From NCBI RefSeq assembly GCF_029542785.1, contig NC_083371.1, positions 310,001 to 374,000 of the forward strand: a stretch of 64,000 bases of DNA. Direction: 5' to 3'. A program made the translations under genes and the position numbers. Below are positions 2,686-59,336 of the stretch, in pieces (position 1 is the first letter of the stretch; the number at the start of each line of letters is the position of its first letter). Under the pieces are notes generated by a model, which saw only the letters and a list, made by a program, of their open reading frames with translations, was not told the DNA's origin and ran no database searches. Source of the stretch: Malassezia japonica. Taxonomy: Eukaryota > Basidiomycota > Malasseziomycetes > Malasseziales > Malasseziaceae.

Positions 2686-3595
2686 ATGGTGCGGCCGCCG
2701 CCCAGCCGCGCTGCGAGCGCGGTGTTCTCCGTGCTGCTGCTGCTGCTGCACGTTGCGTACGGGATATACAGTGCAATCGTCGATGCGATACAGGCGCTGC
2801 CGTTTGTGCTCGCCGCCGCAGACGACACGCCGCTGCCGAGCGACATCCAGGGCGTGCGTGTGCCGCAGCACCTCGCGGTCGTCTTTCCCCTTGCACCGTC
2901 CAAGGCGAGTGCGTACATTGCGCTTGCGCGACATCGGACGGAGCAGCAGAGAATCCGTGTGCAGGACGCGCTGCACGATGTCTTTCGCCTGGCCGCCTGG
3001 TGCGCCGTGCTGGGCACAGCCGAGCTCTCGGTCTATGACCGCGACGCGCTGCTCTGGAGCGCGCTCGCAAAAAGCCGCACGGCGCTCGATGGGCTGCCGG
3101 ATGATGTTGGGAATGTAGCGACCGAGGCGTGCATCCACGTCGACGTGCACCTCGGCCAGGGGGGGGCCGTGCCGCCCTTTTCTCTGTACATTGCCGTGTC
3201 CGACGAGGCGTGTGCCGCGTACCGCCAGCAGGGCCTGACGCTTCCCCTGCGCGTGCGCCTAAATGTGCTGAGCGCGCGCGATGACAAGCCGCCGCTGGTG
3301 CTGGCCGCCAACCAACTCACAAAAGACGCAGACGTCGCTACGCTGCGTGCTGCGGTGATGCAGCACAGCGTGCTGACGAGCGACCCCGACCTGGTGGTGA
3401 TCTGCGGCCGTGGCGCGCGTCCCATCCAGCTGTACGGCTTCCCGTGCTGGGCGATCCGCATCGCGGACCTTCGGTACGTCGCGCGACTAACGCAGCACGC
3501 TGCCTTCCTGGACATGGCTCGGCCGCTGGACCGCCGCCCAGTTCCTTGATACCCTTCGGCGCTATGCACTCTCCGAGCAGCGATACGGTGCATGA
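2686..3595 (+). CDS. NUS1: NUS1-type subunit of cis-prenyltransferase (dehydrodolichyl diphosphate synthase complex)
   Basis: Partner subunit of the ER enzyme that makes the dolichol backbone; related to human NgBR. Exons 2686-3473 and 3496-3595 give 295 aa. A hydrophobic stretch at residues 11-31 is the membrane anchor. The cis-prenyltransferase fold follows, with ELSVYDRDA, PDLVVICG and LYGFPCWAIRIADL. The 22-nt intron (3474-3495) begins GTACGT and ends CTAACGCAG. Without splicing, the frame runs into an unrelated tail at 3549. With splicing it ends in QFLDTLRRYALSEQRYGA, which supplies the RxG motif (RYG, 292-294) characteristic of the NgBR/Nus1 subunit. The start is the first ATG; the codon at 2641 is GTG. 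It converges on the hydrolase gene with 10 bp between stops. Confidence 0.88.
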
Positions 3596-3605
3596 TATAG
3601 ACAAT

Positions 3606-4901
3606 CTATTCGCGATGGGCCGGCGCACGTCCGCTCAGCTTTGTAGGAAGCATGATCGGGAGGAGGTCCGCGTTCTTGTCAAAGAGGTGGTTGTGGCCAC
3701 CCTCGTCCAGGCGCATGTAGGTCATCACCGCGTTGCGCGGTAGGACCGCACGCGCGCCCGGCAGCAGGCCTCGCGACTCGGGCAGGCGCGCGGAGCGGTG
3801 CAGGACCGACTGCACAAAGCCGACATCGGGCACGTTGGACGCCCACACGTGGTACGCAGACGTCTTGGTCATCGCCTCGAATGCAGTCTCGACGCCGGCG
3901 TAGAGGTCGTCGCCGTGGTACACCGGAATCACCTCGTCGTTCTTGGCGTGCATCAGGAGAATCGTCGGGGGCGTCATGCCGCCTTCGGTGCGATGGCCCC
4001 GAAGGATCTCGGCAAGCGCCTCCTCCGTGTTGAAGCTGTAGTGCAAGAACTTCTCGATGACCTGCTCGCGGAATGGGAAGTACTCGAGCCAGCCAAGCAT
4101 CGGCACGACGCCGCCCATGCGGAACTCGATGACCATCGGGCGGATGGCCTTGAAGGCGGCGAGGAGGATGAGCGCGTCAAGCTGGATGCCGTCGCGGTAC
4201 AGGCGCAGCGCGGTCTGTGCCGCAATACCCGTGCCGAGACTCTGGCCCATGATCGCGAGCGACTGGCGGCGGCCGGTCTCGGGGTCGAGTGACCTTTCCC
4301 GCACGTACTGCACCGCGCTGTACGCGTCGTTGACCACGCCTTCCTCCGTCGGGAAGCTCTCCGAGTCGCCAAAGCCACGGTAGTCGATGGCAATCACGTT
4401 GGCGTTCTGCACCTTGGACAGGTGCTTGTACGTGCGCACGCGGAACGTCGCCGCGCGGTTCATCGCATTCCCATGCAGATACACAAACGTAGGGTACTCG
4501 CGCAGCGCGCGCTCGTACACCTCCTCCGGCAGGTCGGGGTTCTCGGGGTCGATCGACTTGGATACCTCCTCGTAGAGCGAGTCGGGCAGGTGGTGCCACA
4601 TGCCGATTTTCACGCCGTCCGACGTGGTAATGTGCATGTTGCGCGCCTGGGCCGCTGCGTCAGTCTCCCCACGTACGCTCAATTCCATGCTGGTGCGGCT
4701 CGGAGAAGCGCGGCCATATGGGGAACGGGATCTTGTGCAGGAACAGGTAGCTGCGTCAGCCGTACGACATACTGCCGCTGGAGCTCAGGGATACCCAGCA
4801 CAAACATAAACGCAATGTACGCGCCGCATGCGGCGAGCGCCTGAATAAGTCACACTACGTACGTAGACGTGCATCCGCACCACTGTCGACCAGGTCACCA
4901 T
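3606..4901 (-). CDS. ABHD12-like membrane alpha/beta hydrolase
   Basis: Serine hydrolase of the ABHD12 (lysophospholipase / BEM46-like) group, probably on an endomembrane. Exons, in transcription order: 4863-4901, 4773-4840, 4677-4750 and 3606-4654; 409 aa. The three introns (4841-4862, 4751-4772, 4655-4676) are each 22 nt. Splicing builds an N-terminal membrane segment (ALAACGAYIAFMFVLGIPEL) and the family-typical run IPFPIWPRFSEPHQHGIEPA leading to ARNMHITTSDGVKIGMWHHL. Visible catalytic features are the oxyanion region VYLHGNAMN, the nucleophile elbow GQSLG (Ser about 199), the acid in HAKNDEVIP and the histidine in DEGGHNHLF. The start is only 19 bp from the stop of the upstream same-strand gene. 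Confidence 0.85.
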
Positions 4902-4914
4902 GGTTTTAAGAATC

Positions 4915-4920
4915 CACGTG
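4915..4920. promoter_or_regulatory. CACGTG box next to the ABHD12-like start
   Basis: A CACGTG hexamer fills most of the 19-bp gap between the Phe-tRNA synthetase stop and the ABHD12-like ATG. It is 14 bp from the start, so it may lie inside the transcript; regulatory meaning is uncertain. Confidence 0.2.
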
Positions 4921-7355: not shown

Positions 7356-7778
7356 ATGGACGGCGTCAGTGCGGAGCAGTTCCACGGTGCGTAGCGCGGC
7401 TCATGTAGCGCTCGTCTATGACTTGGTGCGCGAAATACCCTGCGGGAAGGTGACGACCTACGGTATGCTACGCTACTTACCCAGGCACAATAGCACAGCT
7501 CGCGGGCTTCCCACGGCGTACGTCGTGCTCCTGACGCAGATTCGCGCATGGTCGGCGCGGCGCTGAAATATGTCCAGGACGAGACGCTCCCATGGCAGCG
7601 TGTCGTCGGCTCCGGGGGCATTATATCCGAGCGTGGCGACGGCGGCGCGGGCGCTGCACGCCAAGCCGACGCGCTGCGGGCAGAAGGTGTCGAAGTCGTC
7701 CCCACGCGCGGCGACCGCGGCAAATGGCGCGTGGAAAACTTCATGGCCCATGCCTGGGACGGAAAGGTATCTACATAG
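7356..7778 (+). CDS. ATL1: Alkyltransferase-like protein (ATL), DNA-lesion recognition without methyltransfer
   Basis: ATL proteins bind O6-alkylguanine and flag it for nucleotide excision repair. Four exons (7356-7386, 7409-7462, 7485-7517, 7540-7778) joined across three 22-nt introns give 118 aa. Splicing restores the DNA-binding fold of the O6-methylguanine methyltransferase family: EIPCGKVTTYGTIAQLAGFP, the arginine-finger region RHSRMVGAAL, then PWQRV where active transferases have PCHRV. Trp58 thus replaces the alkyl-accepting cysteine, as in S. pombe Atl1. A GIISERGDGG loop and a basic C-terminus follow. Every exon junction falls inside a conserved motif, which makes this a very clean test of the short-intron model. 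Its stop is one base from the DOT1 stop. Confidence 0.9.
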
Positions 7779-39926: not shown

Positions 39927-39994
39927 CTTGCTGGTTGTGACGATAAACTGGGCTTCGCCCTGCCTGCTGTCTAGACCACGCACCGCAATAAAAA

Positions 39995-40117: not shown

Positions 40118-41684
40118 ATGACCGATGTACGCGGATCCGGCGGCCGGAGGCGTAGCGGGAGCGCGTCGTCGGGGCATCGTGTGAACCGTGGAAACGGTTT
40201 GAAGATGCGGCAGCGAACAGAGCCGCTATCGCCTGTCGTACATGGAGTCGCGCTGGCAGTGATGATCAGCTTAACCGCGGTGCTGGTGCCGTTGTTGTTG
40301 GGGGCGACGCTTTTGTCGATCGGTACGTCGTTTCTACTCACAGAAGTTCCCCTGCTTGGATTAGGGTACGCTATGAAACTAACGCAGCGCTGTCGCTCTC
40401 CTTCCTTTCCTGTTTGTATTGGTAGTATACAGCGTGGCCTGGACGGCCTATCTCCTCGTGGCCCAGCAAGACCCACCGCCGTACGCACTGCTGGGCTCTG
40501 CTGCTCTTGCGCGGCTGATTCCCTTTCTGCCCCTTGCTCCGCTGCGGTGTGTCAAGGTGGTCAAAGCATCGGCACAGTACGTTTGGGCCTGCCTCTGGAA
40601 TATTCGCATTGCGCACGACTGGTTCCTGCGATATGTATACTACACCCGCGCCAAGGAGCGGGGTGAGCCTATTTTTGATACCATTCCCTATGGAATCCCA
40701 TTCTCTCGGCAAGTCCTCGATGTATACCCTGCACCGCGCACGGCAGGCCCCGAGCCACGCTCCACACTCGCCGCGCCCGAAGTGACGGGCCTGGGCATCC
40801 AGCGCGGCGTGCCTGTGTTGGTGATTGTGCCTGCTCCGATCCTTCCCAGCAGCATCCTGGGACATCGCAAAACCTATCTTCAGCTTGCACTGAGCATGCG
40901 CAAGCTGGGCTACTGTGTCGTGGTCCCCGACATTACGTATTACCCCGCATCGCGCATCCGGCAGTCGGTAATCGACCTGCGCCTGGCGCTCAGCTGGGTC
41001 GGCGCGCATATTAGCAGCTATGGCGGCAACCCCGCCAGCATCTATGTGATGGGCTTTGGCCTATCCGCGCACCTCGTGAGCCTGACGCTGATCCAAGAGG
41101 CGACCGTGCTCAGTCACACGCTCGTGGTGAATGCCATTGCGCATGGCGAGGAGAGTAGCGCCGGCGCTTCACCGCACGGTGCTCTCCAGGCCGAGAAGCG
41201 CGAGCAGGTCGCCATGCGTCTGAAGAATCTCGAGATATACGTTCCCCAAGTCCGCCTTCCACATCTCGCCGGAGTCGTGCTCCTGGCCGGCGTGAGCGAT
41301 GTGGTGAAAGAGTATCGCCACGAAATGGAGCAGGGTACCGAGCATCTAAGCTACCTACGCCGCTCGAGTGGCCCTTCGCATGGACAATGCCTCTTGCATT
41401 CCCCCGCACACCTGCTTGTGGAATCGCGGGGGATCGTCGACCCCTCGTTCCTCCCCCCCAAGTTCCTCCTGATCCACGGCGGAAAGGACCAGGTGGTGCC
41501 CATCAGCCATTCTACACTCTTAAACACGCTTCTTTCCGAGGCCGGCGTCAAGCAGGTCGAGATGCGCGCATATCGCGAACTCGGCCACCTCGAAACGCTG
41601 ACAAGCCTCCTGACGATCCCCTGCCAGAAAGACTCGGCCTACGCACCCCAACTCCTCGCGGACGTGCGGGAGTTTATTTCCTAG
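40118..41684 (+). CDS. Alpha/beta hydrolase-like membrane protein with altered nucleophile elbow
   Basis: 514 aa from exons 40118-40365 and 40388-41684; the 22-nt intron ends CTAACGCAG. The N-terminus is Ser/Arg-rich, then two to three membrane helices (about 45-105, including VALAVMISLTAVLVPLLLGA). The hydrolase fold follows, with a strand and oxyanion region (VPVLVIVPAPIL), a cap and SWVGAHISSYGGNPASIYVM. The elbow reads GFGLS (305-309), so Gly307 sits where related esterases (GHSAG) have the catalytic Ser. The acid (GGKDQVVPIS) and histidine (RELGHLETL) are present. Closest in style to fungal steryl-acetyl or prenylcysteine methylesterase-like hydrolases. It could be a pseudoenzyme, or use the Ser two residues on. 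Confidence 0.7.
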
Positions 41685-41749: not shown

Positions 41750-43028
41750 ATGTACCTTTCTGTGCTCCGTCCTTCCCTTCTCCGAAGTGCTGTACGTGCA
41801 TACAGAATTCCTGCCATGTCGAGCACTGCTTCCAATGCTGTGAACGCACCTGATGCAAAGCGTCTCAAGTCCGATGTGGCGCCGCTTGATGCGAGCCGTC
41901 TGACGATCGAGCGCAACTCCGCACCCCGCAACCCCCCGCCGAGCGACAAGCTGGTCTTTGGCCAGACCTTTACCAACCACATGCTCACTGTCCCTTGGAA
42001 TGTGTCGACTGGTTGGGGCGAGCCCAAGATCCAGCCGTACGGCCCCTTCACCCTGGACCCCAGCTCGGTGATCTTCCACTACGCCCCGTCGCTCTTTGAG
42101 GGCCTCAAGGCATACCGCGCGCCCGACGGCAGCGTGCGCCTCTTCCGCCCGGATAAGAACGCGGAGCGCATGAACCGCAGTGCGGAGCGCATTGCTCTTC
42201 CGGTACGTGCCCCAACTCACACAGACCTTTGACGAGGACGAGCTGGTGAAGCTCATCAAGAAAACCGTCGAGATCGACCAGGACTGGGTGCCGAGCGAGC
42301 CGGGCTTCTCGCTCTACGTCCGTCCCACGCTCATTGGTACGCAGGCCTCACTGGGTGTCAGCCCCAGCTCGGATGCGATGCTCTTCATCATCATGTCGCC
42401 CGCCGGCCCCTACTACTCTTCCGGCGTGAAGCCTGTAGCGCTCGAGGCGAACCCTGCGCGCGTGCGTGCGTGGCCCGGCGGTACGGGTGACGCAAAGCTC
42501 GGTGCGAACTACGGCCCTTGCATTCTCCCCCAGCGTGAGGCCGCCAAGAAGGGCTACCAGCAGAACCTGTGGCTCTTTGGCGACGAGCACTACCTGACCG
42601 AGGTCGGTACCATGAACCTCTTTGTCGTGCTCAAGAACGACGACGGCAGCTTCGAGGTGGTCACGCCCCCCCTCAACGGCATGATCCTGCCGGGTGTGAC
42701 GCGCGACTCGGTCCTTGGTCTGCTCCGTGCGCACGGAAAGGGCGAGTCGAAGCTCGGCGAGCTTCCTGCTGTCCACGTCAGTGAGCGCGAGATTACCATG
42801 AAGGAGGTCGAGCAGGCTGCCGAGCAGGGCAAGCTGGTTGAGATCTTTGGTGCGGGCACTGCCGTGGTGATTAGCCCCGTGGACAAGATTGGCTACATGG
42901 GCAAGGACATCCCCGTGCCCGTCACCGAGTCTGGCTTCGGGCCTGTGGCAGATGTGATCCTCAAGACGCTGTCGGACATCCAGTGGGGCAAGGTGTCGCA
43001 CCCCTGGTCGGTGGCTGTGAGCGAATAG
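41750..43028 (+). CDS. BAT1: Branched-chain amino acid aminotransferase
   Basis: PLP enzyme that interconverts Leu/Ile/Val with their keto acids. Exons 41750-42202 and 42225-43028 give 418 aa. The 22-nt intron separates RIALP from TFDEDELVKLIKKTVEIDQ. Fold-type IV landmarks: HYAPSLFEGLKAYR, FRPDKNAERMNRSAERI, the PLP lysine in GTGDAKLGANYGP, DEHYLTEVGTMNLF and PPLNGMILPGVTRDSVL. The N-terminus (MYLSVLRPSLLRSAVRAYRI) is a good mitochondrial presequence. A second ATG at 41816 begins MSSTASNAV and would give a cytosolic form. Yeast splits these roles between BAT1 and BAT2; only one gene is seen in this window. Confidence 0.92.
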
Positions 43029-43052: not shown

Positions 43053-44304
43053 CTACATATCCGCAAAAAACGCCTTGGCGTCCGCTTCGGTATCCTGCGC
43101 CTCGGCGGCGGCGGCGGGCGGCGGCAGGTTGCGGCGGCGCTGCAGAGGCGGCGCGTCGCTCTCCTCGTCGCTGCTATCTTCGTCGCTCGCCTCGGTGCTG
43201 CGTGCGATGGTCTCGGACTGGCGCAGAATGACCTCGTCCTCCTCGTCGTCCTCCTCCTCCTCGTCCCCCTCAAGGAGCGGGCGAAGATCCGTGAGCTTGC
43301 ACTCGCTGCCGTGGCCCAAACTGGCAATCAGATTGCCTTTGCGGCGCATGACTTCGACGGGCATCCCGTCGTGGTCCGCGACAATGCCCAGTAGCTTGTG
43401 CGGAAAGAGCTGGACGACACGCACAAGCCCATCAGAAGATCCTGTGAGTACGGTATCGTCGTCAAGCGTGCAGATCGTGTCGACACTCGACGGGTGGCCA
43501 GGGAACCGGTCGACGTGGTCGAGCAAGCCACGCGACGGCGCCCACAAAGAAAGAATGCCGAGCTGTGTGCCGACAACGAGCTTCTTTCCGCCTCGAATCG
43601 CAGCAATCGACAGCAGTTCGTCCTCCTGGTCGTCGCTCACTTCGACGGCCTTCTTCTTGGCGCGCACGTCAATCACACTCAGCGTTCCGTCGCCGCTTGT
43701 GCAGACCAGCCGGCTGCGGCCGTCACCGTCGCTCGGTTCGGCACGTTTCCGCTTCGGAGGCTCGTCCTTGCTGCGCGTGCGTGGCGCGTCGAGGTGCGTG
43801 CACCACAGCATGTCTGTGATCCAGTCAAAATGGTGGTCGTAGGACTGAATCGGCGCCGAGTCCTCCTTCGCTGACCGGGGATCCCAAAGACGCACTACAC
43901 CGTCGTCGTCTCCGGTCGCCACGAGATTAGTATCGATCGGGAGCACACGCGAGGGAGCGGAGCTGGGTAAGAAGAGCGACCTACTCATGCGCATTGTTCA
44001 CCCGCATCTTGACCTGCCCGGTGAGCGGATCGATGGAGAGGAGCGAGCGGTCCTTTGAAATTGAGTACAGGTTTGACGCTGTATCATCGAACGACACGCC
44101 GCGGCAGCTCTTGTGCGAAGTGCGCACGTTCCACAGGCGCTTGTACTTGCGCTTCGAAGAAGTCTCGTCTCCATCCTCGTCCAACATGGCGCTATAGTCG
44201 AATAGCTGGACCTTGCCGCTGATCAGCCCGACAGCGAGCAAGTTCTCATCCTCCCCAGGATGGAACGAGACGTCCAGCGCATCCGAAGACAGCGCAATGT
44301 CCAT
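43053..44304 (-). CDS. JIP5: WD-repeat ribosome biogenesis protein Jip5/WDR55
   Basis: WD40 propeller of the nucleolar Jip5/WDR55 family, needed for 60S subunit maturation. Exons 43985-44304 and 43053-43962 around a 22-nt intron (43963-43984) give 409 aa. I start at the ATG at 44304; the codon at 44313 is GTG. WD units include LLAVGLISGKVQLFDY, SCRGVSFDDTASNLYSISKD, then across the junction VNNAHDSAPSRVLPIDTNLV followed by ATGDDDGVVRLWDPR, and later TVLTGSSDGLVRVVQLF. The C-terminus is acidic (EGDEEEEDDEEDE) followed by an Arg/Pro/Ala tail. It is divergent from another ribosome-assembly gene, DBP3. Confidence 0.88.
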
Positions 44305-44406: not shown

Positions 44407-46000
44407 ATGAGCGCCGAGAAGAGCAAGGTCGTCGGCGTCGAGCCGACGAAGGACAAGAAAGAGAAGAAGGACAAGAAGGACAAGAAGGACAAGAAGGACA
44501 AGAAAGAGAAAAAAGAAAAGAAGGAAAAGAAGGAAAAGAAAGACAAGAAGGACAAGAAGGACAAGCAGGAGGAGGCCGTCGCTGCGCCTGTCCCCACGGC
44601 TGCGTCCAAGGCTACGGTACGTTGCATCACTAACCCAGACGTCCAAAGAGGCTCGTGAGTTCCTGGAGAAGAACAGCATTACGATGGAAATGCCCGAGGA
44701 GAGCACGGAGCGTCCGCCGTTGCCGATGCTGTCCTTTGGCGAGCTCGACGGCAAGATCGATGCGAGCCTCAAGGAGCGCTTTGACGCCGAGGGTTTCAAG
44801 CAGCCTACGCTCATCCAGTCGTGCTGCTGGCCTGTCCTGCTGCAAGGCAAAGACATTGTCGGTATCGCCGAGACGGGTTCCGGCAAGACGCTTGCGTTCG
44901 GTGTGCCGGCACTCCAGTACGTGATTGAGAACCAGCCGAAGAAGAAGAAGAACACGATCCAGGTGCTCGTCATTGCGCCGACGCGCGAGCTTGCGATTCA
45001 GACGCGCGACAACCTCGCGCGTGTGAGCGAGCCGCTGGGCTTTGGCACGTTCTGTGTCTATGGTGGTGTGTCTAAGTCGGAGCAGCTGCGTGCGCTGGAG
45101 AACAACGCGCTGCCTGTGCGCATTGTTGTCGGTACTCCGGGCCGTGTGCTCGATCTTGCGCGCGAAGGCTCACTGGATCTGAGCAACGTCAGCTACCTTA
45201 CGCTCGACGAGGCCGACCGTATGCTCGACAAGGGTTTCGAGCCGGATATCCGTGCGATTATCGGCATGACCAAGTCGCACGACGAGGGGCGCCATACCAA
45301 CATGTTCAGTGCGACGTGGCCGCCGGCTGTGCGCGGCCTCGCCGAGACGTTCATGCGCTCGCCTGTGCGTGTGACGGTCGGCAGCGACGAGCTGAGTGCG
45401 AACCGCAAGGTGTCGCAGACGGTCGAGGTGCTGCAGGACGGTCGCGAGAAGGAGCGCCGCCTCAACACGTTCCTGCGCTCGGTCAACGCGCAAACGGCCA
45501 ACGACAAGATTCTCATCTTTGCACTCTACAAGAAAGAGGCGCAGCGTGTGGAAGGTACGCTGAAGCGCTGGGGATACCGTGTCTCGGGCATCCACGGCGA
45601 TCTCAACCAGCACGAGCGTATCGCGAGTCTCGAGGCGTTCAAGACAGGCGAGACGCCTCTGCTGGTTGCAACCGATGTCGCGGCGCGTGGACTGGATATT
45701 CCGAACGTCGAGCACGTCGTCAACTACACCTTCCCTCTTACAATTGAAGACTATATTCACCGCATTGGGCGTACCGGCCGTGGCGGCAAGACGGGTAAGG
45801 CCCTCACTTTCTTTACCGACGAGGACAAGGCGCACGCGGGCGAGCTGATTCGTGTCCTGAAGGACGCGGACCAGCCTGTGCCGGACGCGATGGACAAGTT
45901 CCCAACGACCATCAAGCGCAAGTCGCACTCGAGCTACGGTGATCACTACAAGGAGCTCGTTCCCGGAAAGGCGAAGAAGATCACCTTCGATGATGATTAG
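44407..46000 (+). CDS. DBP3: DEAD-box RNA helicase Dbp3
   Basis: ATP-dependent RNA helicase of 60S ribosome assembly. Exons 44407-44616 and 44639-46000 (22-nt intron ending CTAACCCAG) give 523 aa. The N-terminus is a long Lys/Asp/Glu repeat (see separate entry), as in Dbp3 orthologues. The splice joins AASKAT to TSKEAREFLEKNSITMEMPE. Helicase motifs in order: Q motif PTLIQSCCWP, motif I AETGSGKT (about 148), PTRELAIQT, GTPGRVLDL, DEAD in TLDEADRML (about 260), SATWPP (in place of SAT followed by other residues), VATDVAARGLDIP and HRIGRTGRGG. Confidence 0.92.
44452..44565 (+). repeat. Coding minisatellite: (D/E)KK repeats in DBP3
   Basis: About 12 complete 9-bp units encoding Asp-Lys-Lys or Glu-Lys-Lys (residues 16-53). 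Units differ mainly by GAC versus GAG/GAA, so the tract can change length by slippage without losing charge. Confidence 0.9.
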
Positions 46001-46107: not shown

Positions 46108-46207
46108 CTCCCAACGTGGGGCTCGAACCCACGACATTCAGATAACTCTTCGTAACCGAAGAGACCCTTTTAAGAGTCTGACGCTCTACCGACTGAGCTA
46201 GCCGGGA
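46108..46207 (-). tRNA. tRNA-Lys(CUU) with 27-nt intron
   Basis: All arms fold: acceptor TCCCGGC with GTTGGGA (two G-T pairs), D-arm GCTC...GAGC, anticodon stem TCAGA/TCTGA, loop with CTT anticodon, T-arm GTGGG TTCGAGC CCCAC, discriminator G73. The intron (46144-46170) sits after position 37, the canonical site, and contains a perfect 7-bp hairpin (CTCTTCG/CGAAGAG). Mature length 73 nt. A and B boxes are intact and a T9 terminator follows. Confidence 0.95.
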
Positions 46208-46326: not shown

Positions 46327-48241
46327 CTACTCTGAAAGCGACACTGCTGTTAGTCATTGCACGTACTCAGGCTCCCCACAAAGGTGAGGATGAGGCGCTG
46401 GCGCAGCTCCACAATATCCTCGGGCACCAAGAAAATCAGCGCGCCGAGCTTGCGGGCAATGCTGATGGCCAGTTTCGCGTTGAGCTTGCACTCCTCCTCG
46501 GTATCGCCATTGGTCACAAGCGAGTAATCGACGATTCCCTTGCGCATCGTGTCGAGCAGGTCCAAGAAGAACTTGGCATTGGCCAGGCTCGGGTCGCGGA
46601 ACGAGCGGACCGGGGACTTGCCAGCTGCCTTTACGCGGCTGTTGGCCCAGTTGAGAATTTCAAGGTCCGACACCGACTTGCCGCTGCGCGAAAGTTCTGC
46701 GAGGGTCTTGGTAATGTTCATGCGCATGATCTGCCAGACTAGGCCGAGCGTCAGGGTCTTGGCGCCGTCGGTGATGTCGGCGCCCTGGATGCCGACGATG
46801 TGCAAGTTGTTTGCGCGGGCGACTTCGATGGCATAGTTGGTGTTCTCGACCATCTTGAAGCGCGACAGTTCCTGGCCCTCGCGCGGCTTAGAAACGCGCT
46901 TCCAGTTGATGGAGCCCGGAGCGACCTTGTCAAAGGCCTGTGCGAGAATATTGCCGTCCTTCAGGTCTTCAAACAGGTGGAAGATGCCCGGTTGGACGTC
47001 CAGCGAGTTGAGCCAGAGCGTAAACACACGCGCCTCGCGCTCTCCCTCCGCGTCAAAGTCCTCGACCTCGAGCGGCGGCGCGTCTTCCACCGGCTCCAGC
47101 GACGGCCAGGTGTTGAAGAGCGTCGCGACAAACGCCAAGTTCAGCTTGGGGTTGCCCGCGATCATCGAGCCCGGCGTGAGGTACTTGCGGCACCCGATCG
47201 CTTCCGCGCGCTGGAGCACCATCTCGGCGCGCGTAATCAGATCCTGCTCCTGGAGCGGGCGCTTGTCGCAGGCGTCCGGCTTGATTTGGTTCAGGAGGAT
47301 GGTGTAGTTCTCACCGTCCGAGACGTCCTTGGAAAAGTTGGACACACGGCGTCCCCACTGCGCAGCCTTAAGGTGGTAGTTGAACCAGCGCAGGAGGATT
47401 TGGTCGGGCGGAAGCTTGAGGAACGCGTCGAGTTCCTCGCCCTCCTCGAGCAAACGGAAGAGTTCGGGGTGGTGCTTCAAGTCGATCTTGCTCAGGAGCC
47501 CGCGGCGCACAATCTGCCAGATGAGACCCAGGATCAGGTGCTCGCGCCCGTCGGTCAGGTCCTGCGGGCCAATGTTGACGACGCTGCATCCGATCGCTTT
47601 GGCCGACTGGATGACAATGTTGTTGTTTTCCGTCATCTGGAACGCGTTCGGCCCCTTGCCTCCCTTTCCGACATTCAGGACACGCTCGTCAATCGTGTCC
47701 GGCACCGCGTCGTTGATGAGCTTGCACAGAATCAGACCGTCGCGGCACTCGTCAAACAGCTGGAAGGTGTCGGTCGGGATGGGCAGGCGCGCGCCGATGT
47801 GCACGTCGCCATCCAGGCTCATGTTAATGTGGCGCGTAAACTCGGAGCGCTCGTCCTCGTTGATCGAGTGCTGCGTCGAGGCGTTGCTGCCCTTGACCGT
47901 CACACGGCCCTTGTTCACGACGCCCGCCTCGGCATTGCTTCCTTTGCGCAGGCGTGCAATGAGCTGTGTCAGCATAGAGACGTACATCGACATAGTCCTC
48001 GAGCTCGACACGCCCGCTCGCGTCCAGGTCGACGTCCTTGAGCGTCGCACGCACCTGGTCGTAGGACGCACGCTCCAAGTCCTGCACCTCTTTGACGACG
48101 ACCTGGCGCTCAAGGCTGCCTTTGTCGTCGACATCGATCTGCTTGAACTTGGATATGAGAGACATCATCTCCTCTTGGGAGCTGCGTTAGCCGCGCTACC
48201 TACAATTGGGGATACTTTCGCTGCAGCTTAATCGCCTCCAT
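46327..48241 (-). CDS. SAC6: Fimbrin (actin-bundling protein)
   Basis: Cross-links actin filaments in patches and cables. Exons, in transcription order: 48204-48241, 47986-48181, 46367-47963 and 46327-46343; introns of 22, 22 and 23 nt; 615 aa. Exon 1 encodes MEAIKLQRKYPQ and exon 2 the EF-hand-like part (ISKFKQIDVDDKG, DASGRVELEDYVD). The long exon carries four calponin-homology domains in two actin-binding units (for example NEDERSEFTRHINMSL, RWFNYHLKAAQWGRRVSNFS and LTLGLVWQIMRMNI). The last coding exon is only 17 nt and replaces a wrong unspliced end with GSLMSLSE, the expected fimbrin C-terminus. Confidence 0.92.
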
Positions 48242-48328: not shown

Positions 48329-50973
48329 ATGAAGTGTAGGTCGCGTGTCTGACGCAGTCTCCCACAGCTTGCAGCTGAATAGTGTTCCAGAATGGTCGGA
48401 CAACTATATTGAGTAGGTGCCTTGGCTGACCCAGTTATCAGCACCTAAAAAAGGTGATTTATACCTTGGAGCGTGCACGATACGCAAATGACGGCCTCAA
48501 CGACGCCGCGCCGGAGCGCCTCGAGAACGAATCGACCGTGCTGCTGGATGCCTCACCGTCTGACACCGACCGGCTGTTTGTTCCCGAGCTCGATAAGCAG
48601 CTGCGCAAGATTGTCGACTTTTACTGCCGCAAAGAAAAGGAACTTGCGGACGGCGTGCGTGCCGTGCGCGCGCACATCCAGCTCGCCGAGGACGAGTACG
48701 ACACGTACGCGAGCGGCGGCGAGTCGGATGCAGACGTGAGCGAGGACCCCGACGCGGATGAGTCGGGCCACGAGCCGGTCCGGCGGAAGATGCCGTCGTG
48801 GTACGCGCCGAAGCGCCCTCGCTCGCACACGTCCCAGAGCGACACGGACGGACATGCAGGCGCGTCGCCGAATGCTTCGACAGACCTGCTTCCTACGTAC
48901 AAGCGCTGGATCAAGACGTTTGGCAAGTCGGGCTCTTACCGCCGCCCCCGGCGTCTGTCGAATGCCGACCACTCTGACTTTAACCTGCTGGGCCACTCGA
49001 GCACGGGCGGCAGCAGTTTTGAAAATGTGACCGCCGCGTCTGTGTGGGCCGCGCACGATGAGTACGCCATTGACGTGCGCATCACGATCAAGCGCGAGGT
49101 GACGGAGCTCTTTACGTCGCTGAGCGAGCTGCAGCAGTACACCGAGCTCAACCTGACCGGCATGAAAAAGATTCTCAAAAAATACGACAAGATCACCGAC
49201 AGCCAGCTCAAGGACCGTTACGTGGAGCAGGTCGTGATGGTCAAATACCCCTTCCAGACGCACGCCAAGGCACAGCTCGACGAGTACCTCAATGATGTCG
49301 TGCACCTCTATGCCCACATCGCGACGCGCGGCGACGAGGAGCAGGCGCGCTCGCAGCTCAAGGCACAGCTCCGCGAGGAGGTCGTGTGGCAGCGCAACAC
49401 AGTCTGGCGTGAGATGATCAACATTGAGCGCCGTGCGCAGGCCGCCTCGCTCGAGCGCAGCTTGATTGGCACGGCCGCTGGCGACCTGCTGGCCAAAGAG
49501 ACGCAGCCGCCGCGCGTGGTGCACACCTTCTTTGGCGATATCATGCTTCCTTCCTTCTTTACGGCTGGCACGCTCCAGCTCTTCTTTTCCATCGCCCTGT
49601 TTATTTTGCTGCTCAAGAACCCCTTCCTCCGTGTCTTTGACGAGGTCGAGGTGCAGAATTGCTTTGCGATGCTCATCTTTTGCACGTGTCTGTGGGTGAC
49701 CGAGGTTATCCCGCTGTTTGTCACCTCGCTCCTTGTCCCGTTCCTGATCACGACGCTGCGTGTGGCGCGCCACGAAAAGGACGGCGAGTACACGCGCATG
49801 ACCGCGCCCGAGACCAGCAAGTGGATCTTTTCGCAAATGTTTGCACCGAACGTCTCGCTGCTGCTTGGTGGCTTTACGCTCGCCGCGGCCTTGTCGAAGT
49901 ACGGCATCGACAAGGTGCTCGCGACACGCGTGCTCCGCCTCGCGGGCACCAAGCCGAGCATCGTTCTTCTGGCACACATGCTCGTCGCATGCTTTGCGAG
50001 CATGTGGATTTCGAACGTCGCCGCGCCTGTGCTCATGTTCTCGCTCGTGCAGCCGATTCTGCGCAATTTGCCCCCCCGGTCGCCGTACGCGACGAGTCTC
50101 GTGATGGGCATCGCGCTCGCGTCGAATATCGGCGGCCAGACGTCGCCGATTGCCTCGCCGCAGAACCTCATTGCGCTCGAGTACATGAAGGAGCCGATCG
50201 GCTGGCTGCAGTGGTTCTCGATTACGATTCCCGTGTCGGGCCTGTCGCTGATTGTCCTTTGGCTCCTGCTCCTCTGGTCCTTTGGCACCGGCAAGGGCGT
50301 CGTGATCAAGCGCATCCCCGAGCCGACCGAACCTTTGCAAAAGACGCAGTGGTTCATTTCGGCCGTGTGCATCGGCACCATTGTGCTGTGGTGCCTCGAG
50401 CGCAAGATCGAGTGGATTGTGGGCGACATGGCGATCATCGCCATTGTCCCCCTCGTGTGCTTCTTTGGCACGGGCATCCTGACCAAGGAAGACTTTAACA
50501 ACTTCCTTTGGACGATCGTCTTCCTTGCGATGGGTGGTATCGCACTCGGCAAGGGCGTCGACTCGAGCGGTCTGCTTGCGAGCCTCGACCACTTTGTGCA
50601 GGACCGCGTCGAGGGACTGCCGCTATGGGGCATCCTGCTGCTCCTTGTCAGCATTGGCCTCGTGGTCGCCACCTTTATCTCGCACACCATCGCCGCCGTT
50701 CTCCTGGTGCCGATCGCGGCACAGATGGGCGAGAACCTTTCGCAGCCGCATCCCCGACTGCTCATCATGGCCACGGTGCTCACCGCGAGCGCCGCCATGG
50801 GCCTTCCCATCTCGGGCTTCCCCAACATGACCGCCATCAACCTCGAGGATGAGGTCGGGCAGCGGTACGTCTCGGTCAAGACGTTCTTGCGGGTCGGTAT
50901 CCCCGCCAGCATTGCCGCGACGGTGATCATCGCCTCGGTCGGCTACTTGATCATGTCGTTACTGGGGCTGTAG
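48329..50973 (+). CDS. SPX-domain low-affinity phosphate transporter (Pho87/Pho90/Pho91 family)
   Basis: Sodium- or proton-coupled phosphate carrier with a regulatory SPX domain. Exons 48329-48335, 48358-48412 and 48435-50973 with two 22-nt introns give 866 aa. Exon 1 has just 7 coding bases (ATGAAGT). Splicing creates the classic SPX start MKFSHSLQLNSVPEWSDNYI followed by DYQHLKKVIYTLERARY, including the Lys cluster that senses inositol pyrophosphates. The SPX domain is split by acidic and Ser-rich inserts and ends near residue 320. The DASS/SLC13 domain follows with about twelve helices and the conserved SNIGGQTSPIASPQN and GLPISGFPNMTA elements. I cannot tell a plasma-membrane (Pho87/90) from a vacuolar (Pho91) form. 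Confidence 0.9.
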
Positions 50974-51009: not shown

Positions 51010-52384
51010 TCAAGAAGACTGGCGCGCGTTCGCCAGAAGGCGACCCACGACCTCAAAGGAGCCGATCATGATGCCACACGACGGCGCCACTTTGGCCAGG
51101 CGGGGCGACAGGCCACGGAAAAGACCCGCGGCGCCTTCGGTGTCGACGATGTGTCGCAGCGCGCGGAACATGGAGCGCGCAGGCGACGCGGCCGGCGATG
51201 CAGGGTATCGGGGGTCTGCCGGGGACATCTCCGCCTGGAGACGCGTCTTGACCAGGTCAAAGGGCTGCGTCGCAATGGCCGCAACGCAGCCGCTCGTGGC
51301 ACCGACGCCAAACGAAATGCCAAACTCGTGCCAAAAGGTCGACGTCTGGCTCTCGCCAAAGCCGGCGCCGGTGAGCATGTACTTGCCGGCCTCGTAGCCA
51401 GTAAAGTAGAGCGCAGAAAAGGGCACGTCGCGCCACAAGGTCGCCGAGAGACCGCGCCACAAGACACCGGGGCCGTCGTTGCACACCTCGCGGAACAAGG
51501 GATCGAGCACCGAGGTCATGGACGAGCGCCCGTACGACGCCTGCAGACGCGTGCGCAGCAGCTCCAGCGGCGTCACGAGCGTCGCCGAGACCGAACGCGA
51601 GAATGCACCGGAAATGAGCGACGCGCCGAGCAGGGGAATACGCAGCGGCTCGCTCGGGCCGCGCTCGTGCTCGCATGGCATGTCGCACGGAAAGTCGGGC
51701 ACGTAGAGCTCCGAGTCAGAATCGTACGCAAGGTTCGGCGAAGGTTGCGCTGCTTTTTGGTCGATGCGCGACGGACGCGCCACCTCGAGCGAGAGGAGCA
51801 TGCGGCGGAAGATGTCGTAGCACGTCATGTACGTTACCTGCGAGGGCACGGTCATCGCCACGGTCGGCACGAGGCCCCGCCACAGGCCGCTCCAGCCTTC
51901 GGTGCGCGCCACCTTCACGATGCCGTCCCAGATGCCGTTCATGCGCCGCTCGCGCAGCAGCGACTCGACCTCGCACGCCTGTGGCCGGCACTTTTCGGGG
52001 AATACGCACACCGCCTGCCCATTCTCGGCCAGCGTCATGGGGATCGTGGGGGTGAGGTGGTAGGTAGGCGCAGTGCGTGGCACGACGTACGCACCCCGCG
52101 TGTGCAGGGCATTTTGGCGCACCTGCTCCTGTCCAGGGCATGGCCGCGACACGTTTGCGCTTCGCGCCTCGGATGCCACAGCTGTGGTATCGTAGCGCAC
52201 GCTATTTTGCACCTGCAAGCGGGTCTTTACCACGTCGAGCGGCGTCACTGGGTCAGATAGGCGACGTACTTAAAAAAGAAGTAGAGATAGCACCTGCGAT
52301 AGCTGCAATTGCACGGTCTGTGTGCGACATGACAATCCGGACAGGCTCCTCCTCCTTCGGAGGCGTATCCAAACGGGAGGACAT
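51010..52384 (-). CDS. MTM1: Mitochondrial carrier of the Mtm1/SLC25A39-SLC25A40 type
   Basis: Inner-membrane carrier family linked to glutathione import and manganese/iron-sulfur homeostasis. Exons 52270-52384 and 51010-52247 (22-nt intron ending CTGACCCAG) give 450 aa. Exon 1 supplies the first half of helix 1 (RAIAAIAGAISTSFL); the junction rebuilds LMTPLDVVKTRLQ. The three carrier signatures are PLDVVKTRLQ, PLELLRTRLQ and PFDLVKTRLQ. The long matrix loop after the first signature contains cysteines (CVFPEKCRPQACEVES), and a second Cys pair occurs in DFPCDMPCEHERG, features consistent with the SLC25A39/40 group. The protein is longer than a typical 300-aa carrier because of these loops. 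Confidence 0.85.
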
Positions 52385-54257: not shown

Positions 54258-55765
54258 TCACGTGGACTGGGCCCAGGCGCGAGCGCGGTGGAGGGTGTCA
54301 GACTCTTGCAGCGCGAGCTGGACCGTGCTCCGCAGCGGCCCCCGGTCCGCCTGGAGCAAGGCGCCGGCTTCGTCGTCGTGGGTCGTCACGTAGAGATTTT
54401 TCATGCGGGATGTGCAGAGGTGTGCGAGGCACTGGGCGGCCAGGTGTACCGCGTGGTCAGGAGCGGCCTGCATCGCGCCGCCGAACGACTGCACCTGGTT
54501 CAACAGCATCGGCCAGTCGGTAATGGGCGCTGCGGCGCAGGCCATGGCGGCGCCAAGGCACAGGCGCCACAGTACATAGCTCGGTCTCCCGGTAGGATCG
54601 ACAAAGAGAGGGCGTGAAAAGTCGCGCGGGCTCTGCAGCCGCGCAAAGAGCGCGTCGTCCGAGGCGGCTTCTGGCTCGAGCGAAAGCAGCAGGTGGTCCA
54701 ATCCAGGAGCGTGGTTACCATTAGGTGTGTAAGCCAGGCACGAAGAAAAGGCCTCTTCGAGCTCGCGGAGCTCGGCGGGCATGGCGGGCCCCCAGCTCGA
54801 GCGGTCGTACAGGGTCTTGCTATCCAACACGAATCCGTACTGGCACAAAAGCTCGGCATTGCTTAGATCGCCGTACGTATTGATGGCTTCGTCCCCTTCG
54901 TAGAGCGCCTCGATGCAGCGCACGTCGATCGTATTGCTGAGCGCTTGCGTGCATGGGCCCTGGTGGGGATAGCCGCACTGGAGGCACACGAGCTCCTCGG
55001 CCTCGACTTGCACATTGTGCATATCTGTGTGATTGAATAGGTCTGCGATGGGCACCATGCACAGGCTGCATTAGGAGAGAGACGTACCCGTGGTACACAT
55101 TAATCACAAAAGCACGACTCGAGACCAAGGTAAAAGCATCCACATAGGAGGGCCAGTCGACCTGGGCCTGTTGGGTTTTGCGGACGACCCCCTTTCCATG
55201 TGTCTCCCAGTAGGTATGCAGGCGGCGCTGCGTTAGGCCAGAAACGTACCAAAGAGTAGCCAGGCTTGCTGGTCGATGCGTCGCTGTCCCAAAACTGAGC
55301 AGCACGGGCTACAGACCGTGCGGCCTCGGTGCTTTGAATCCATCTTGTTCCTTCGTACGATGCATCCCAGCACATGGGCAAGTTGACGCGGCGTGGCAGA
55401 CTTTGCACGTAGCCCGCAAACGCCGACTTGTCCTCCAAGCCCCGTTCGTAGGCCAAGCACAAGGCGAGGTGCAGCGCATTGTCTGCACACAGCCTCAGTG
55501 CCTCTTGAAACTCACTCGAATGTGCTAGTGTACTGGTCTTGGTCGAGAGGACCGCATCGCAGGGAATATAGACCACCGTGTCCCCCGCTGGAATCGGTGC
55601 GTTGGCTACGACCGCGATGGCGCCGCCCTCGGCCTGGTACTCGAGGTCCGAGTCTTCGTGTGCATCCAGAGGCACATGTTCGATTGACAAGCGCTCATCC
55701 ACCGCGATTCCGTGCCGGACGCACCACGCAAGTAGCGCCGCCGTGTCCGGCCCCCCGCTGGCCAT
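54258..55765 (-). CDS. SET-domain protein, probable lysine methyltransferase (SETD6/Rkm-like)
   Basis: Exons 55250-55765, 55088-55227 and 54258-55065 (two 22-nt introns) give 487 aa. The N-terminus LLAWCVRHGIAVDERLSIE and the split SET domain (EGGAIAVVANAPIPAGDTVV ... SSRAFVINVYHGLCMVPIAD followed by LFNH) fit the non-histone, ribosomal-protein or SETD6-like class with a long insert in SET. The SAM-binding and catalytic part reads VPIADLFNHTDMHNV and YEGDEAINTYGDLSNAELL, with the Tyr in YGD. The C-terminal half is helical, like the Rubisco-LSMT substrate-binding domain. I place the start at 55765, because the next ATG upstream (55834) shares its CATG with the start of the divergent RRM gene. 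Substrate unknown. Confidence 0.8.
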
Positions 55766-55832
55766 CCCTGAATGGACGTGCGCAATGTGGAGAAATCGCC
55801 CGATTTTCGCTTTCGTCGCCTTCTTGATCGCC

Positions 55833-56278
55833 ATGACGTCCAGCAGCAAGACAGTGTATATTGGTACGTCCCACTCCCTAACGCAGGTGGTCTCGACAAA
55901 GATACCACAGAAGAGATCTTGCACAATACGTTTGTGACCTTTGGCGAGATCAGCGATATCCAGTTGCCGAAAGTCTCGGAAGGAGGTACGTTGCTCCCCT
56001 CACCCAGCGTCTGCGAACCGCGGCTTTGGGTTCATTACCTTTACGCAGGAGGATGCAGCGGAGGATGCGATTGATAATATGCACTTGAACGAGTTTCGTG
56101 GCGTACGTCGCTCTGCTAACGCAGAATGTGATCACGGTCAATGCGGCCAAGCCCCAGAGAATCCAGACGGGCGATGCATGGCGGCCGATTTGGGAGACCG
56201 AGGTACGCGGCACGACTGACGCAGGAATGGAACCAAGAGTACGGCAACAAGCCATTGCCTAGCCAGCCTGGGGCATAG
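55833..56278 (+). CDS. RRM protein like the N-terminal domain of cyclophilin E
   Basis: Five exons (55833-55863, 55887-55985, 56008-56102, 56125-56202, 56225-56278), with introns of 23, 22, 22 and 22 nt; 118 aa. The spliced frame is one RRM: RNP2 TVYIGGL and RNP1 RGFGFITF, with EGASAN and the fourth strand NVITVNAAKP assembled across junctions. After the domain comes RIQTGDAWRPIWETEEWNQE, resembling the linker after the PPIE RRM. The gene then stops, so there is no cyclophilin domain. Unspliced, no frame covers more than a fragment of it. In other eukaryotes this RRM-cyclophilin is a spliceosome component. It converges on IDI1 with 58 bp between stops. Confidence 0.85.
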
Positions 56279-56336: not shown

Positions 56337-57119
56337 CTAAAGACGGTGAATCTTGTCATTCTCGAGGCTGGCAAGCACCTTGGCATCGTACTTGCCCTCG
56401 CTGGTAGGGTGCTCCAGCAGCTCCTTCCACCACGGGAAAAGGAACTCGTTCACGATAAGCTTGAACCAAGGCGTGAAGGAAGAGGCTGTGTGAGTCTTGA
56501 CAACGTACGGTCCAGGTCGTTCATCAGTTGCTTCAGCTCGTCCACAGAAACCCATTTCACGTCGCAAACCTCGTTCTCGTTGACCTTCAGCGAGACCGGC
56601 GCAGTCAGGAACAGGATATAGTCGACTAACGTCAGTCGCACAGTACGTACTTTCGTGCTCGCCCCACAGGCCGTCGCTCGGCGCGAGGTAGTGGATACGC
56701 GTCAGGAACTGAATATCTTCCAAATTCACTTCGTTCAGCGGGATACCAAGCTCGTGCTCGAGCTTGCGCTGCGCCGCACGCTTCGCACCCTCACGGCCGT
56801 CCAGCTCGGACCGCACAGCGAGGGGGTGCGAGCAGCACGTATTCGTCCACATATTCGGGAACGTAATCTTTTCCGGAGCGCGGCGCTGGAGAAGCAGCTT
56901 GCCGGTCGTCGGGTCAAAAATGAACATGGAAAAGGCACGGTGAAGCAGGCCGTCGTTGATGTTGGTCATCAAATGGCACTCCTTCTTGCTGCCATCGCGG
57001 ATGTAGTTATCGTCATTGTCCAGGACAATACAGCGCTCCTCCATCAGACGAATCTGCTCCTCATCGTGTCCCGCAAGCGAGACATCCTCAGCACGCGTCG
57101 GTTCCGCGGTCGTCGACAT
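56337..57119 (-). CDS. IDI1: Isopentenyl-diphosphate delta-isomerase
   Basis: Nudix-fold enzyme interconverting IPP and DMAPP in the mevalonate pathway; its products feed the NUS1 reaction encoded earlier in the window. Exons 56651-57119, 56509-56625 and 56337-56485 with introns of 25 and 23 nt; 244 aa. Motifs: the active-site Cys in MWTNTCCSHPL, the Nudix helix region AAQRKLEHELGIP and, across the first junction, LWGEHEIDYILFLTAP, then CDVKWVSVDELKQLM. The second junction gives PSSFTPWFKLIVNEFLFPWW. I start at the ATG at 57119; the earlier in-frame codon is TTG. Confidence 0.94.
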   Translation of the reverse strand: MSTTAEPTRAEDVSLAGHDEEQIRLMEERCIVLDNDDNYIRDGSKKECHLMTNINDGLLHRAFSMFIFDPTTGKLLLQRRAPEKITFPNMWTNTCCSHPLAVRSELDGREGAKRAAQRKLEHELGIPLNEVNLEDIQFLTRIHYLAPSDGLWGEHESTYCATDVSRLYPVPDCAGLAEGQRERGLRREMGFCGRAEATDERPGPYVVKTHTASSFTPWFKLIVNEFLFPWWKELLEHPTSEGKYDAKVLASLENDKIHRL

Positions 57120-57171: not shown

Positions 57172-57213
57172 TTGCCCGATCGTCCTTCGGCGAGCCCTTC
57201 GTGGATCTTTACC

Positions 57214-58191
57214 ATGGCCTCGACTTCGGACACGGCCACTGCGCACACTTGGGTAGGTAGAGCCAGCTGACTCCAGGTGCACCCCGAGTGCCGCCCTGAG
57301 AATATCGAGAAGCTTATTTCGGATGTCGGTAAGTTTTTTTTCTTGCTCATTCAGACCGGTACAACCCCCAAAACCGCACGGTTCTGGTGGAATACCTCAA
57401 CGCCCAGCTGAAGAACGGGACGTACGACGCACTTCCGAACCTGGCTATTCTGAAACTGTAAGTACCCAACCAAGTCTTCGCACAAGGACGAGAAGGCTTT
57501 GCCTATCTTTCGTGAGCGCAGTGGACTCGAGACCCACGCGCGTGTGATGCTTTAGTTATTAGCTCTAGCTGAGATCCACCTGTCAAGAGCACGCTAACAA
57601 CAGCTTCCAGCTCAACCCTAGCGAATTTGACCTTGACGTGGCGGTGAACATTCTCGTCAAGGCGCTGACCGCCGCGCCGTTCCCCGACTTTAGCCTGTGC
57701 ATTTCGCTCCTCGGCGAGGCGCCGGTCAAGACACTCTCGAGCAACGATGCGGCGCTGTCCACCGGCGCGGCTGGCATCATTACCGAGCCTATCATTGTGC
57801 ACCTCGCTACGCTCTCTACCTTCCTGTTCGAGACCAAGTTCCGCGACTTTTGGGCGCTCTACAACAGCGGCGACTTTGCGGACGTGCGGAAGTACACTGC
57901 GAACGCGGCGGGCTTTGAGGAAGACGTGCGCAAGGTGGTGCTGAACAGCGTCAAGGGAACGTTCCGTACCATCTCGGAGGCTCGCATCGGCGGCTACCTC
58001 AACCTCCAGGGCGCCGATCTCGCCAAGTTCATCAATGAGCAGCCCGGCTGGGAGCTCAGCAACGGCACCGTGACCGTCCCTGCGAATATCGACAACGAGG
58101 TGAAGCCGACGGTGACGCGCGAGGAGATCTCGCTTGAAAGTATGTACGGTTTTCTCACACAGACCTGTCCAAGCTCCTGGCGCAGGCATAA
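57214..58191 (+). CDS. EIF3K: Eukaryotic translation initiation factor 3 subunit K
   Basis: Small PCI-like subunit of eIF3. Five exons (57214-57252, 57277-57328, 57355-57457, 57604-58139, 58163-58191); introns of 24, 26, 146 and 23 nt; 252 aa. The spliced protein reads TWVHPECRPENIEKLISDVD, RYNPQNRTVLVEYL, LPNLAILKLFQLNPSEFDLD and ILVKALTAAPFPDFSLCISL, then a winged-helix part ending ISLENLSKLLAQA. The order matches eIF3k. This gene holds the widest spread of intron sizes in the window. It converges on PHA2 with 41 bp between stops. Confidence 0.9.
57458..57603 (+). other. Long (146-nt) EIF3K intron
   Basis: Begins GTAAGT and ends GCTAACAACAG. Contains GTGATGC and CTGA about 20 nt apart, too close and too imperfect for a box C/D snoRNA. 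No recognised RNA inside. Confidence 0.85.
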
Positions 58192-58232
58192 TAGTCATAG
58201 TGAAAATACTACGTGGAAAGATATCCCAATGC

Positions 58233-59336
58233 CTATTTACGGGGATACGCAGGCGCACGCCAAGTGCCGAGGCACGCAAGGCGCACATCCACACTAAGAG
58301 ACGCCAGGAGCGAGCGGAGCGGCTCGGTCGGCGCTGTGGGTATTGATAAGGTATCATTTTCCGTGGCCTCCATCTCCAGCAGGAAGGTGTGCACTTCTGG
58401 CGTAGGCACAGAATGCACCGCCGAGGCCAGCTGCCAGCCGTGGAGGGGCTGCGAAAGCGCCGCCGCCAGCGTCGAACCAAGGTCCGTCTCGGACACAATA
58501 CGATAGAGCGTGCGGCTCAAATACTGGGGAGTCCACCGCTCCTTGCGGCTCGCATTCAGCAGCCCAGCCACGGCTGCGCTGCGCGCGTCGGTCGTTGCGA
58601 CGATAAAACGTGTCACGTTTTCTGCATGAGTAATACGACGTACCTTTTGAGTTTTGTATGCCGCGCGCAAGGACGTGCGCACCCATCAGCTCAGCAGACA
58701 GAGGGGACGCAATCGCAGCATCGTGCTCGCCTAGGAGATGGACGGCCTCGGCCGTCGATGCAGTTTCTTCCTGCGTCGCCTTTGACAACTGCGTTGCAAG
58801 GAATTCAGAGCACTGCCCGAGCGCCTGGGTAAGCCAAGAAGGATACACACCTGGGGATGACTACGCACGACCTGCACCTGTGCCAAGTCCACCTGTGGGC
58901 TGCGCACGATCAAGGCGTGGGCAATAGTCAGATGGATTTCGTCAACAATCTCCAGCCCCTTGCTTCCAAACACCTCATCCCTCGCCAAGCATTGAAATGC
59001 TTCGAGGACAGGTCCCTGGAAGCTATTCTCCACAGGCGCCACGACGAGACTGGGCCTAGCCCCCTCCGCATTGCCTTGGCAAGAGAATGCCGAGAGACCA
59101 GCCTGCACCGTATCTTCAATAGTCGGCTTGGCACATAGGGATGCAGCTTGCCCAGCCACAAGTTCCCGAGCCGCCTGGTGCGAATAGGTGCCTAGGGGCC
59201 CCAAAAAGTACACATCCACGCTCCCATGGCTTGGCGTGCACCCTGCCGGTGCCGCCTCCACGACCATGGCTTCGGTAAAGTGGAGGGTTCTTGCCCCGCG
59301 TGGCCTCCAACGCGCTGCGCGCGCCAAGCCCGACAT
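58233..59336 (-). CDS. PHA2: Prephenate dehydratase
   Basis: Converts prephenate to phenylpyruvate in phenylalanine synthesis. Exons 58851-59336, 58644-58824 and 58233-58621 with introns of 26 and 22 nt; 351 aa. Motifs: VYFLGPLGTYSHQAARELV, VAPVENSFQGPVLEAFQCLA, SHPQALGQCSEFLA (built over intron 1) and the catalytic Thr-Arg-Phe in SKENVTRFIVATTD (built over intron 2). The C-terminal ACT-like region is present, but the Phe-binding ESRP motif is not recognisable; the nearest match is HSVP. The start at 59336 gives an Arg-rich N-terminus; an ATG at 59267 is an alternative. Confidence 0.88.

Follow-up and report, generated by a model that had tools for sequence, protein, structure and literature searches.

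The 22-nt introns of Malassezia japonica appear to rest on two separate spacing limits

Very short introns have been described in genes of the genus Malassezia (PMC7426719; this and the other sources cited here were available as excerpts). In M. restricta intron length averages 37.2 nucleotides (nt), the median being 30 nt (PMC9241646), and the genome was annotated with a min_intron_len of 15 (PMC9241646, PMC6473144); averages of 76 and 79 are given for the introns of M. globosa (PMC4634964). Heterotrichs, mikrocytids and a nucleomorph have introns shorter than 22 nt (15–21 nt) (PMC10245619). Here we describe the introns in a 64,000-nt stretch of the Malassezia japonica genome (contig C2, positions 310001–374000; hereafter the window), together with samples and counts from the whole genome (8.43 Mb, 9 contigs). 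In the window an original prediction, made from the sequence, had reported GT...AG introns with a sharp mode at 22 nt. The commonest introns follow a fixed internal plan, and their length is the sum of two separate floors, 17 + 5 nt.

The introns of M. japonica share features with each of several described systems. M. restricta belongs to the same genus, and the excerpted descriptions of it mention neither a mode at 22 nt nor a floor nor a branch geometry (PMC9241646, PMC6473144). Stentor coeruleus, with introns of 15–16 nt, resembles M. japonica in the near-constant size, the mostly fixed branch adenosine and, in its 15-nt introns, the 5-nt tail (PMC9505925). Its branch adenosine lies at position 10, as against a putative position 17 in M. 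japonica; its branch consensus is weak and AU-rich sequence prevails (PMC9505925), whereas M. japonica is G+C-rich, has a strong consensus and possesses longer introns too. Yarrowia lipolytica, like M. japonica, lacks a polypyrimidine tract between branch and AG and has 2 nt between CTAAC and AG, but it is intron-poor and its introns are rather long (PMC2483917), in contrast to the ultra-short introns, about one per gene model, found here. The 22-nt minimum and the strict donor and branch motifs are shared with Encephalitozoon cuniculi (22–76 nt), which has 37 introns and whose spliceosome is strongly reduced (PMC3629993), compared with the ~2,000 introns of 22 nt that we extrapolate for the M. 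japonica genome. The short yet conserved introns of E. cuniculi and T. vaginalis have been attributed, in the excerpted literature, to a low intron number; those of M. japonica are short and conserved but many. Mikrocytids (16–17 nt) and a chlorarachniophyte nucleomorph (18–21 nt) likewise show a narrow range at the floor, but their introns are shorter, belong to a parasite or a nucleomorph and have a closed size range, whereas the range in M. japonica is open upward (PMC10245619). M. japonica is unusual in that its introns, at about one per gene model, are at once ultra-short and strongly consensual. The novelty is partial, since very short Malassezia introns and the 22-nt minimum of Encephalitozoon are already in print; no report of a 22-nt mode in Malassezia was among the matches listed in our literature search, although an earlier report is possible.

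The 22-nt introns are built as GTACGT-N7-CTRAY-N-YAG, with donor variants of the form GTRNGT and a branch motif that is sometimes CTCAC or CTTAC. The original prediction was borne out in the GT...AG ends and the length of 22 nt; the fixed internal plan is additional to it. CTRAY probably represents the branch site, which would place the branch adenosine at position 17 of 22 and leave a 5-nt tail after it. In 49 seeds of 22 nt, the commonest base at donor position 4 is C (39/49), and position 19 is occupied by G in 32, C in 13 and A in 4; the remaining motif letters were preset by the search, so that their frequency is no evidence, which comes instead from the spacing counts. The GT-AG ends with a donor consensus, and a CTRAY near the 3´ end that is pairable with the GUAGUA of U2, are those of U2-type spliceosomal introns.

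The spacing counts were made genome-wide on both strands, with the same DNA reversed as control. GTACGT-N7-CTAAC-NYAG occurs 442 times and never in the control. A shorter spacer, GTACGT-N(0-6)-CTAAC with YAG, is found once (control 2), and a tail shorter by one base, GTACGT-N(7-30)-CTAAC-YAG, is also found once (control 4). All spacers of 0–30 with 3–7 nt after CTAAC give 757 matches (control 19), and CTGAC, the second branch motif, with CAG and 3–6 nt after it, gives 816 (control 8). The donor-to-branch and the branch-to-end counts each have a sharp edge, and the two floors are therefore separate. Among the first 100 listed matches per motif, which come from one strand of one contig and are not a random sample, 61 (CTAAC) and 72 (CTGAC) are exactly 22 nt long, and none of the 200 is shorter. 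The mode thus lies at the minimum length, as in size-constrained ultra-short introns. Four nt follow the motif in 67/100 (CTAAC) and 89/100 (CTGAC) of these introns, where the patterns allowed a maximum of 7 and 6, which corresponds to the short, constant spacing of branch motif and AG of the Yarrowia type. Where the spacer is minimal, the tail is nearly always minimal too (61/71 for CTAAC and 72/75 for CTGAC), compared with 6/29 and 17/25 of those with a longer spacer (Fisher p = 7.8e-10 and 5.6e-4). A similar spacer edge was observed in a 254-kb sample, composed of the window and 19 readable stretches of this genome, 10 kb each (one more stretch, all N, was dropped): looser motifs give 49 matches with spacer 7 and 1 with spacers 0–6 combined. 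In this sample the 22-nt motif with CTNAY has 77 matches, against 0 in the same DNA reversed.

The 22-nt motif was defined without reference to reading frames, and its removal restores them. The 254-kb sample contains 47 motif-defined 22-mers with enough flank, 27 of which have coding-like sequence on both sides. The best-scoring frames fit removal in 24/27 and retention in 2/27; random 22-mers show the opposite (removal 467/8306, retention 7515/8306). Removal is also favoured at 23 nt (2/2), 25 nt (4/4), 26 nt (1/1) and 32 nt (1/1). With relaxed motifs, the window holds 26 candidates of 22 nt; the frames agree with removal in 23 of these and with retention in 2, and 1 fits neither, as does the single relaxed candidate of 24 nt. 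One of the two window candidates that read as retained is intron 1 of an SPX transporter gene, for which the tested upstream stretch lies mostly outside the first coding exon; this exon measures only 7 nt (48329–48335) and is followed directly by the 22-nt intron. At the protein level, six 22-nt junctions lie inside gap-free alignments (three in ADD66, one in an aminotransferase, two in the SPX transporter), and such alignments also span one 25-nt junction (IDI1) and one 26-nt junction (eIF3k). Removal thus restores both frame and family protein sequence, though not for every candidate. The introns and candidates of the window are given below, with the evidence for each: a motif match (motif), reading frames that fit removal (frame), a gene model (model) or a protein match.

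3474..3495, plus strand: 22-nt intron with CTAAC, in gene 2686–3595 without a Pfam match; motif, frame, model.
4841..4862, minus strand: 22-nt intron 1 of an alpha/beta-hydrolase gene; frame, model.
4751..4772, minus strand: 22-nt intron 2 of the same gene; motif, frame, model.
4655..4676, minus strand: 22-nt intron 3 of the same gene; motif, frame, model.
7518..7539, plus strand: 22-nt motif, doubtful as a coding intron; motif, frame fits neither removal nor retention, weak model.
24898..24919, plus strand: 22-nt intron 1 of an ADD66/PAC2-family gene; gap-free against the Malassezia proteins P0001, P0002 and P0005, frame.
24979..25000, plus strand: 22-nt intron 2 of ADD66; gap-free alignment, frame.
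25117..25138, plus strand: 22-nt intron 3 of ADD66, with CTCAC; gap-free alignment, frame.
28032..28053, minus strand: 22-nt intron of a MutS-family gene, with CTTAC; junction at residue 79 within the MutS_I match 61–161, frame.
39848..39893, minus strand: 46-nt first intron of RPS29; motif.
40366..40387, plus strand: 22-nt intron; motif, frame, model.
42203..42224, plus strand: 22-nt intron of a branched-chain aminotransferase gene, with CTCAC; junction at residue 130 gap-free against 2hdk, frame.
43963..43984, minus strand: 22-nt intron of a WDR55-like gene; frame, model, WDR55 match whose displayed stretch does not reach the junction.
44617..44638, plus strand: 22-nt intron of a DEAD-box-like gene (named by eye); motif, frame, model.
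48182..48203, minus strand: 22-nt intron 1 of fimbrin (SAC6); motif, frame, model.
47964..47985, minus strand: 22-nt intron 2 of fimbrin (SAC6); junction at residue 79 within the plastin-3 match 12–607, frame.
48336..48357, plus strand: 22-nt intron 1 of the PHO90-like SPX transporter gene; residues 1–34 gap-free to Pho90 (8r33).
48413..48434, plus strand: 22-nt intron 2 of the same gene; residues 1–34 gap-free to Pho90, frame.
52248..52269, minus strand: 22-nt intron of a mitochondrial-carrier gene; motif, frame, Mito_carr match.
55228..55249, minus strand: 22-nt intron in gene 54258–55834 without a Pfam match; motif, frame, model.
55066..55087, minus strand: 22-nt intron, gene without a Pfam match; motif, frame, model.
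55986..56007, plus strand: 22-nt intron of an RRM gene; junction at residue 72 within the RRM_1 match 39–106, frame.
56103..56124, plus strand: 22-nt intron, RRM gene; junction at residue 104 within the RRM_1 match, frame.
56203..56224, plus strand: 22-nt intron, RRM gene; motif, frame, model.
56626..56650, minus strand: 25-nt intron of IDI1; junction at residue 157 gap-free against human IDI1.
56486..56508, minus strand: 23-nt intron of IDI1; frame, with a 2-residue alignment gap at or beside the junction.
57253..57276, plus strand: 24-nt candidate of an eIF3k-like gene; motif, frame fits neither, precedes the aligned part of the protein.
57329..57354, plus strand: 26-nt intron of the eIF3k-like gene; junction at residue 31 gap-free against human eIF3k.

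Several genes named in the original prediction are thereby confirmed by homology (ADD66, SAC6 and IDI1), whereas NUS1 is not, the gene at 2686–3595 being without a Pfam match. RPS29 is present, but its first intron measures 46 nt, which indicates that the ultra-short size is not universal among introns, and a second one, seen by eye in 39470–39930 of the minus strand, looks longer; Rfam at its gathering threshold found no known RNA in this region. The first and the last of the predicted introns have matching candidates, namely 3474–3495 and a 26-nt segment at 58825–58850. In the alpha/beta-hydrolase gene the Pfam hydrolase match lies 3´ of the intron junctions. Among named proteins, those closest to the product of the ADD66-like gene belong to Malassezia psittaci, M. 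furfur, M. brasiliensis and one further Malassezia entry. The deposited M. furfur (P0002) and M. brasiliensis (P0005) proteins both cease to resemble the other orthologues at about one common position and are cut short, which would be expected if an intron had been overlooked or misplaced in their annotation. Elsewhere in the window, a tRNA match of 100 nt at 46108–46207 (minus strand) perhaps contains an intron, two similar neighbouring aspartyl-protease-like genes (59710–60885 and 62360–63544, identified by eye) are intronless, and G+C declines from 0.68 (first 4 kb of the window) to 0.52 (last 4 kb).

Gene models of the 254-kb sample, which use the motif without a length preference and favour lengths that need splicing to hold the frame, comprise 116 genes with 124 introns, 62 of them 22 nt long. 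Sixty-four genes bear introns and 37 bear one of 22 nt. Scaled up in proportion to genome size, the 62 correspond to the extrapolated ~2,000. The 62 introns are distributed over phases 0, 1 and 2 as 24, 18 and 20, and this spread over all three phases, as originally predicted, implies that they are not coding repeats. In the window, 17/27 models contain introns: 23 of 22 nt, 2 of 23 nt, and one each of 21, 24, 25, 26, 35, 56, 98, 101 and 116 nt. The predicted mode (among 37 introns, 26 of 22 nt and four of 23 nt, with one each of 24 and 25 nt and two of 26 nt) is supported by the genome-wide motif counts and by the frame and protein evidence. Several of the longer window introns are probably model errors, and the 17/124 modelled introns above 60 nt often represent wrong joins. 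Introns of length 3n are underrepresented in Paramecium; no such shortage was found here, where the length is 3n in 19 of the 67 listed introns that exceed 22 nt.

Several observations weigh against a reading of the segments as spliceosomal introns at a minimum size, in addition to two spacer statistics considered below. Only half of the modelled introns (62/124) measure 22 nt and the others extend past 100 nt, so that near-complete confinement to a range of a few nt was not observed. The genome-wide floors were counted for GTACGT donors with CTAAC, and the CTGAC floor is taken from the listed matches. Frames fit removal in only 1/2 segments of 34 nt and 0/1 of 49 nt, and among four relaxed window candidates of 23 nt, one fits removal and three fit retention. 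A motif-free gene finder, which was too weak to be relied on, gave a slight peak at 22 nt (10/165 predicted introns, whereas the five control runs gave 2 to 4 apiece). A looser pattern that accepts any AG yields two 20-nt matches ending in CTAACAG among the first 100 listed; a CAG comes next in both, and they are read as 23-nt introns. A 21-nt candidate outside the window (L014, 2053–2073; CTCAC followed by CAG) would break the floor, and frame cannot decide the case because its length is a multiple of three. An Rfam search of the genome returned nothing for U1, which does not show its absence, and 17 loci from a U1 5´-end pattern (reversed control 4) contained no U1. The predicted lack of any intron below 22 nt is nearly right: the models of the 254-kb sample contain four shorter calls, one of them the 21-nt candidate outside the window. 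By our reading two of the four would use an acceptor 3 nt downstream instead (CAG in one, AAG in the one of the window), and a modelled intron of 13 nt was rejected as a false call.

The splicing components that were examined appear ordinary. U2 is encoded in the genome with a canonical branch-pairing GUAGUA, and U6 with a canonical ACAGAGA region; no compensation in U6 for the C at donor position 4 was seen. Prp18 and Slu7, which are less important when the distance from branch to intron end is short, are both present. Among these few components (U2, U6, Prp18 and Slu7), there is no sign of a specialised machine.

Taken together, the segments are very probably ordinary U2-type spliceosomal introns that have shrunk to the smallest size accepted by the spliceosome of M. 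japonica. The distance from the first G to the branch adenosine would have a minimum of 17 nt (GTACGT, 7 free bases, CTRA), and at least 5 further nt (Y-N-YAG) would have to follow. The genome would have shortened its introns by deletion until these two geometric minima halted the shrinkage, leaving very many introns at rest on both limits simultaneously with end motifs that stay strong. The motif, both floors for the commonest motifs, the frame fit and the protein continuity are observed; we infer that the segments are removed by spliceosomal RNA splicing, and the pile-up would have been made by compaction through deletion against mechanical limits. That the ribosome skips the segments, or that they are removed from the DNA, is scarcely credible in view of the GT-AG ends, the CTRAY at a fixed place where it can pair with U2, and the spliceosomal RNAs and proteins encoded in the genome.

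The original prediction had interpreted the floor as a spliceosome adapted to a minimum-size substrate. The hard floor and the 22-nt mode stand, and a spliceosome that had itself evolved a preference for, or a measure of, a 22-nt substrate, at the cost of poorer splicing of longer introns, would agree with the extremely sharp edge of both spacings and with the co-occurrence of the tail and spacer minima. This explanation is nevertheless improbable, since U2 and U6 have canonical core sequences, the genome encodes both Prp18 and Slu7, and longer introns persist; an ordinary spliceosome, with introns accumulating at its limit as the genome is compacted, explains the data no less well. Still less likely is an origin of the 22-nt introns as copies of one fixed-length mobile element (introner-like) rather than as old introns that were shortened. 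Their fixed length, their strong ends and a few identical 7-base spacers are in keeping with such copies, as is an excess of near-identical spacers among 77 introns of the 254-kb sample (27 pairs, compared with a mean of 14.2 and a maximum of 24 in 100 column shuffles); the 100 CTAAC introns alone are borderline (Markov p = 0.085 and 0.07). However, spacer identity in 172 listed introns shows no excess over a first-order Markov null (p = 0.22 and 0.19), the exon flanks share little beyond a G at −1 (41/77), and sizes run on to 23, 24, 25 and higher. As a set the introns are not near-identical copies, and the 7 free bases carry no clear sign of recent copying.

If the introns have shrunk onto the limits of an ordinary spliceosome, the comparison with Stentor bears on how general these limits are: Stentor shares the 5-nt tail, and its loop minimum is 7 nt smaller, so the loop limit would not be universal, while the tail limit may be. 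We tentatively suggest, as a view that could well prove wrong, that ~2,000 introns of strong consensus, pressed against two separable mechanical limits (17 nt for the branch loop and 5 nt for the tail), act as a natural caliper of a spliceosome that is otherwise canonical; the tail limit may then apply generally and the loop limit to this lineage. Estimates of the smallest intron that a spliceosome accepts have so far come mainly from lineages in which motifs are weak or the spliceosome is reduced. In M. japonica, strong motifs place both ends and the putative branch site, so that loop and tail limits can be separated within the minimum and tested through single-base changes. In the annotation of a genome like this one, gene finders with a larger minimum intron length would miss many introns and truncate the proteins.

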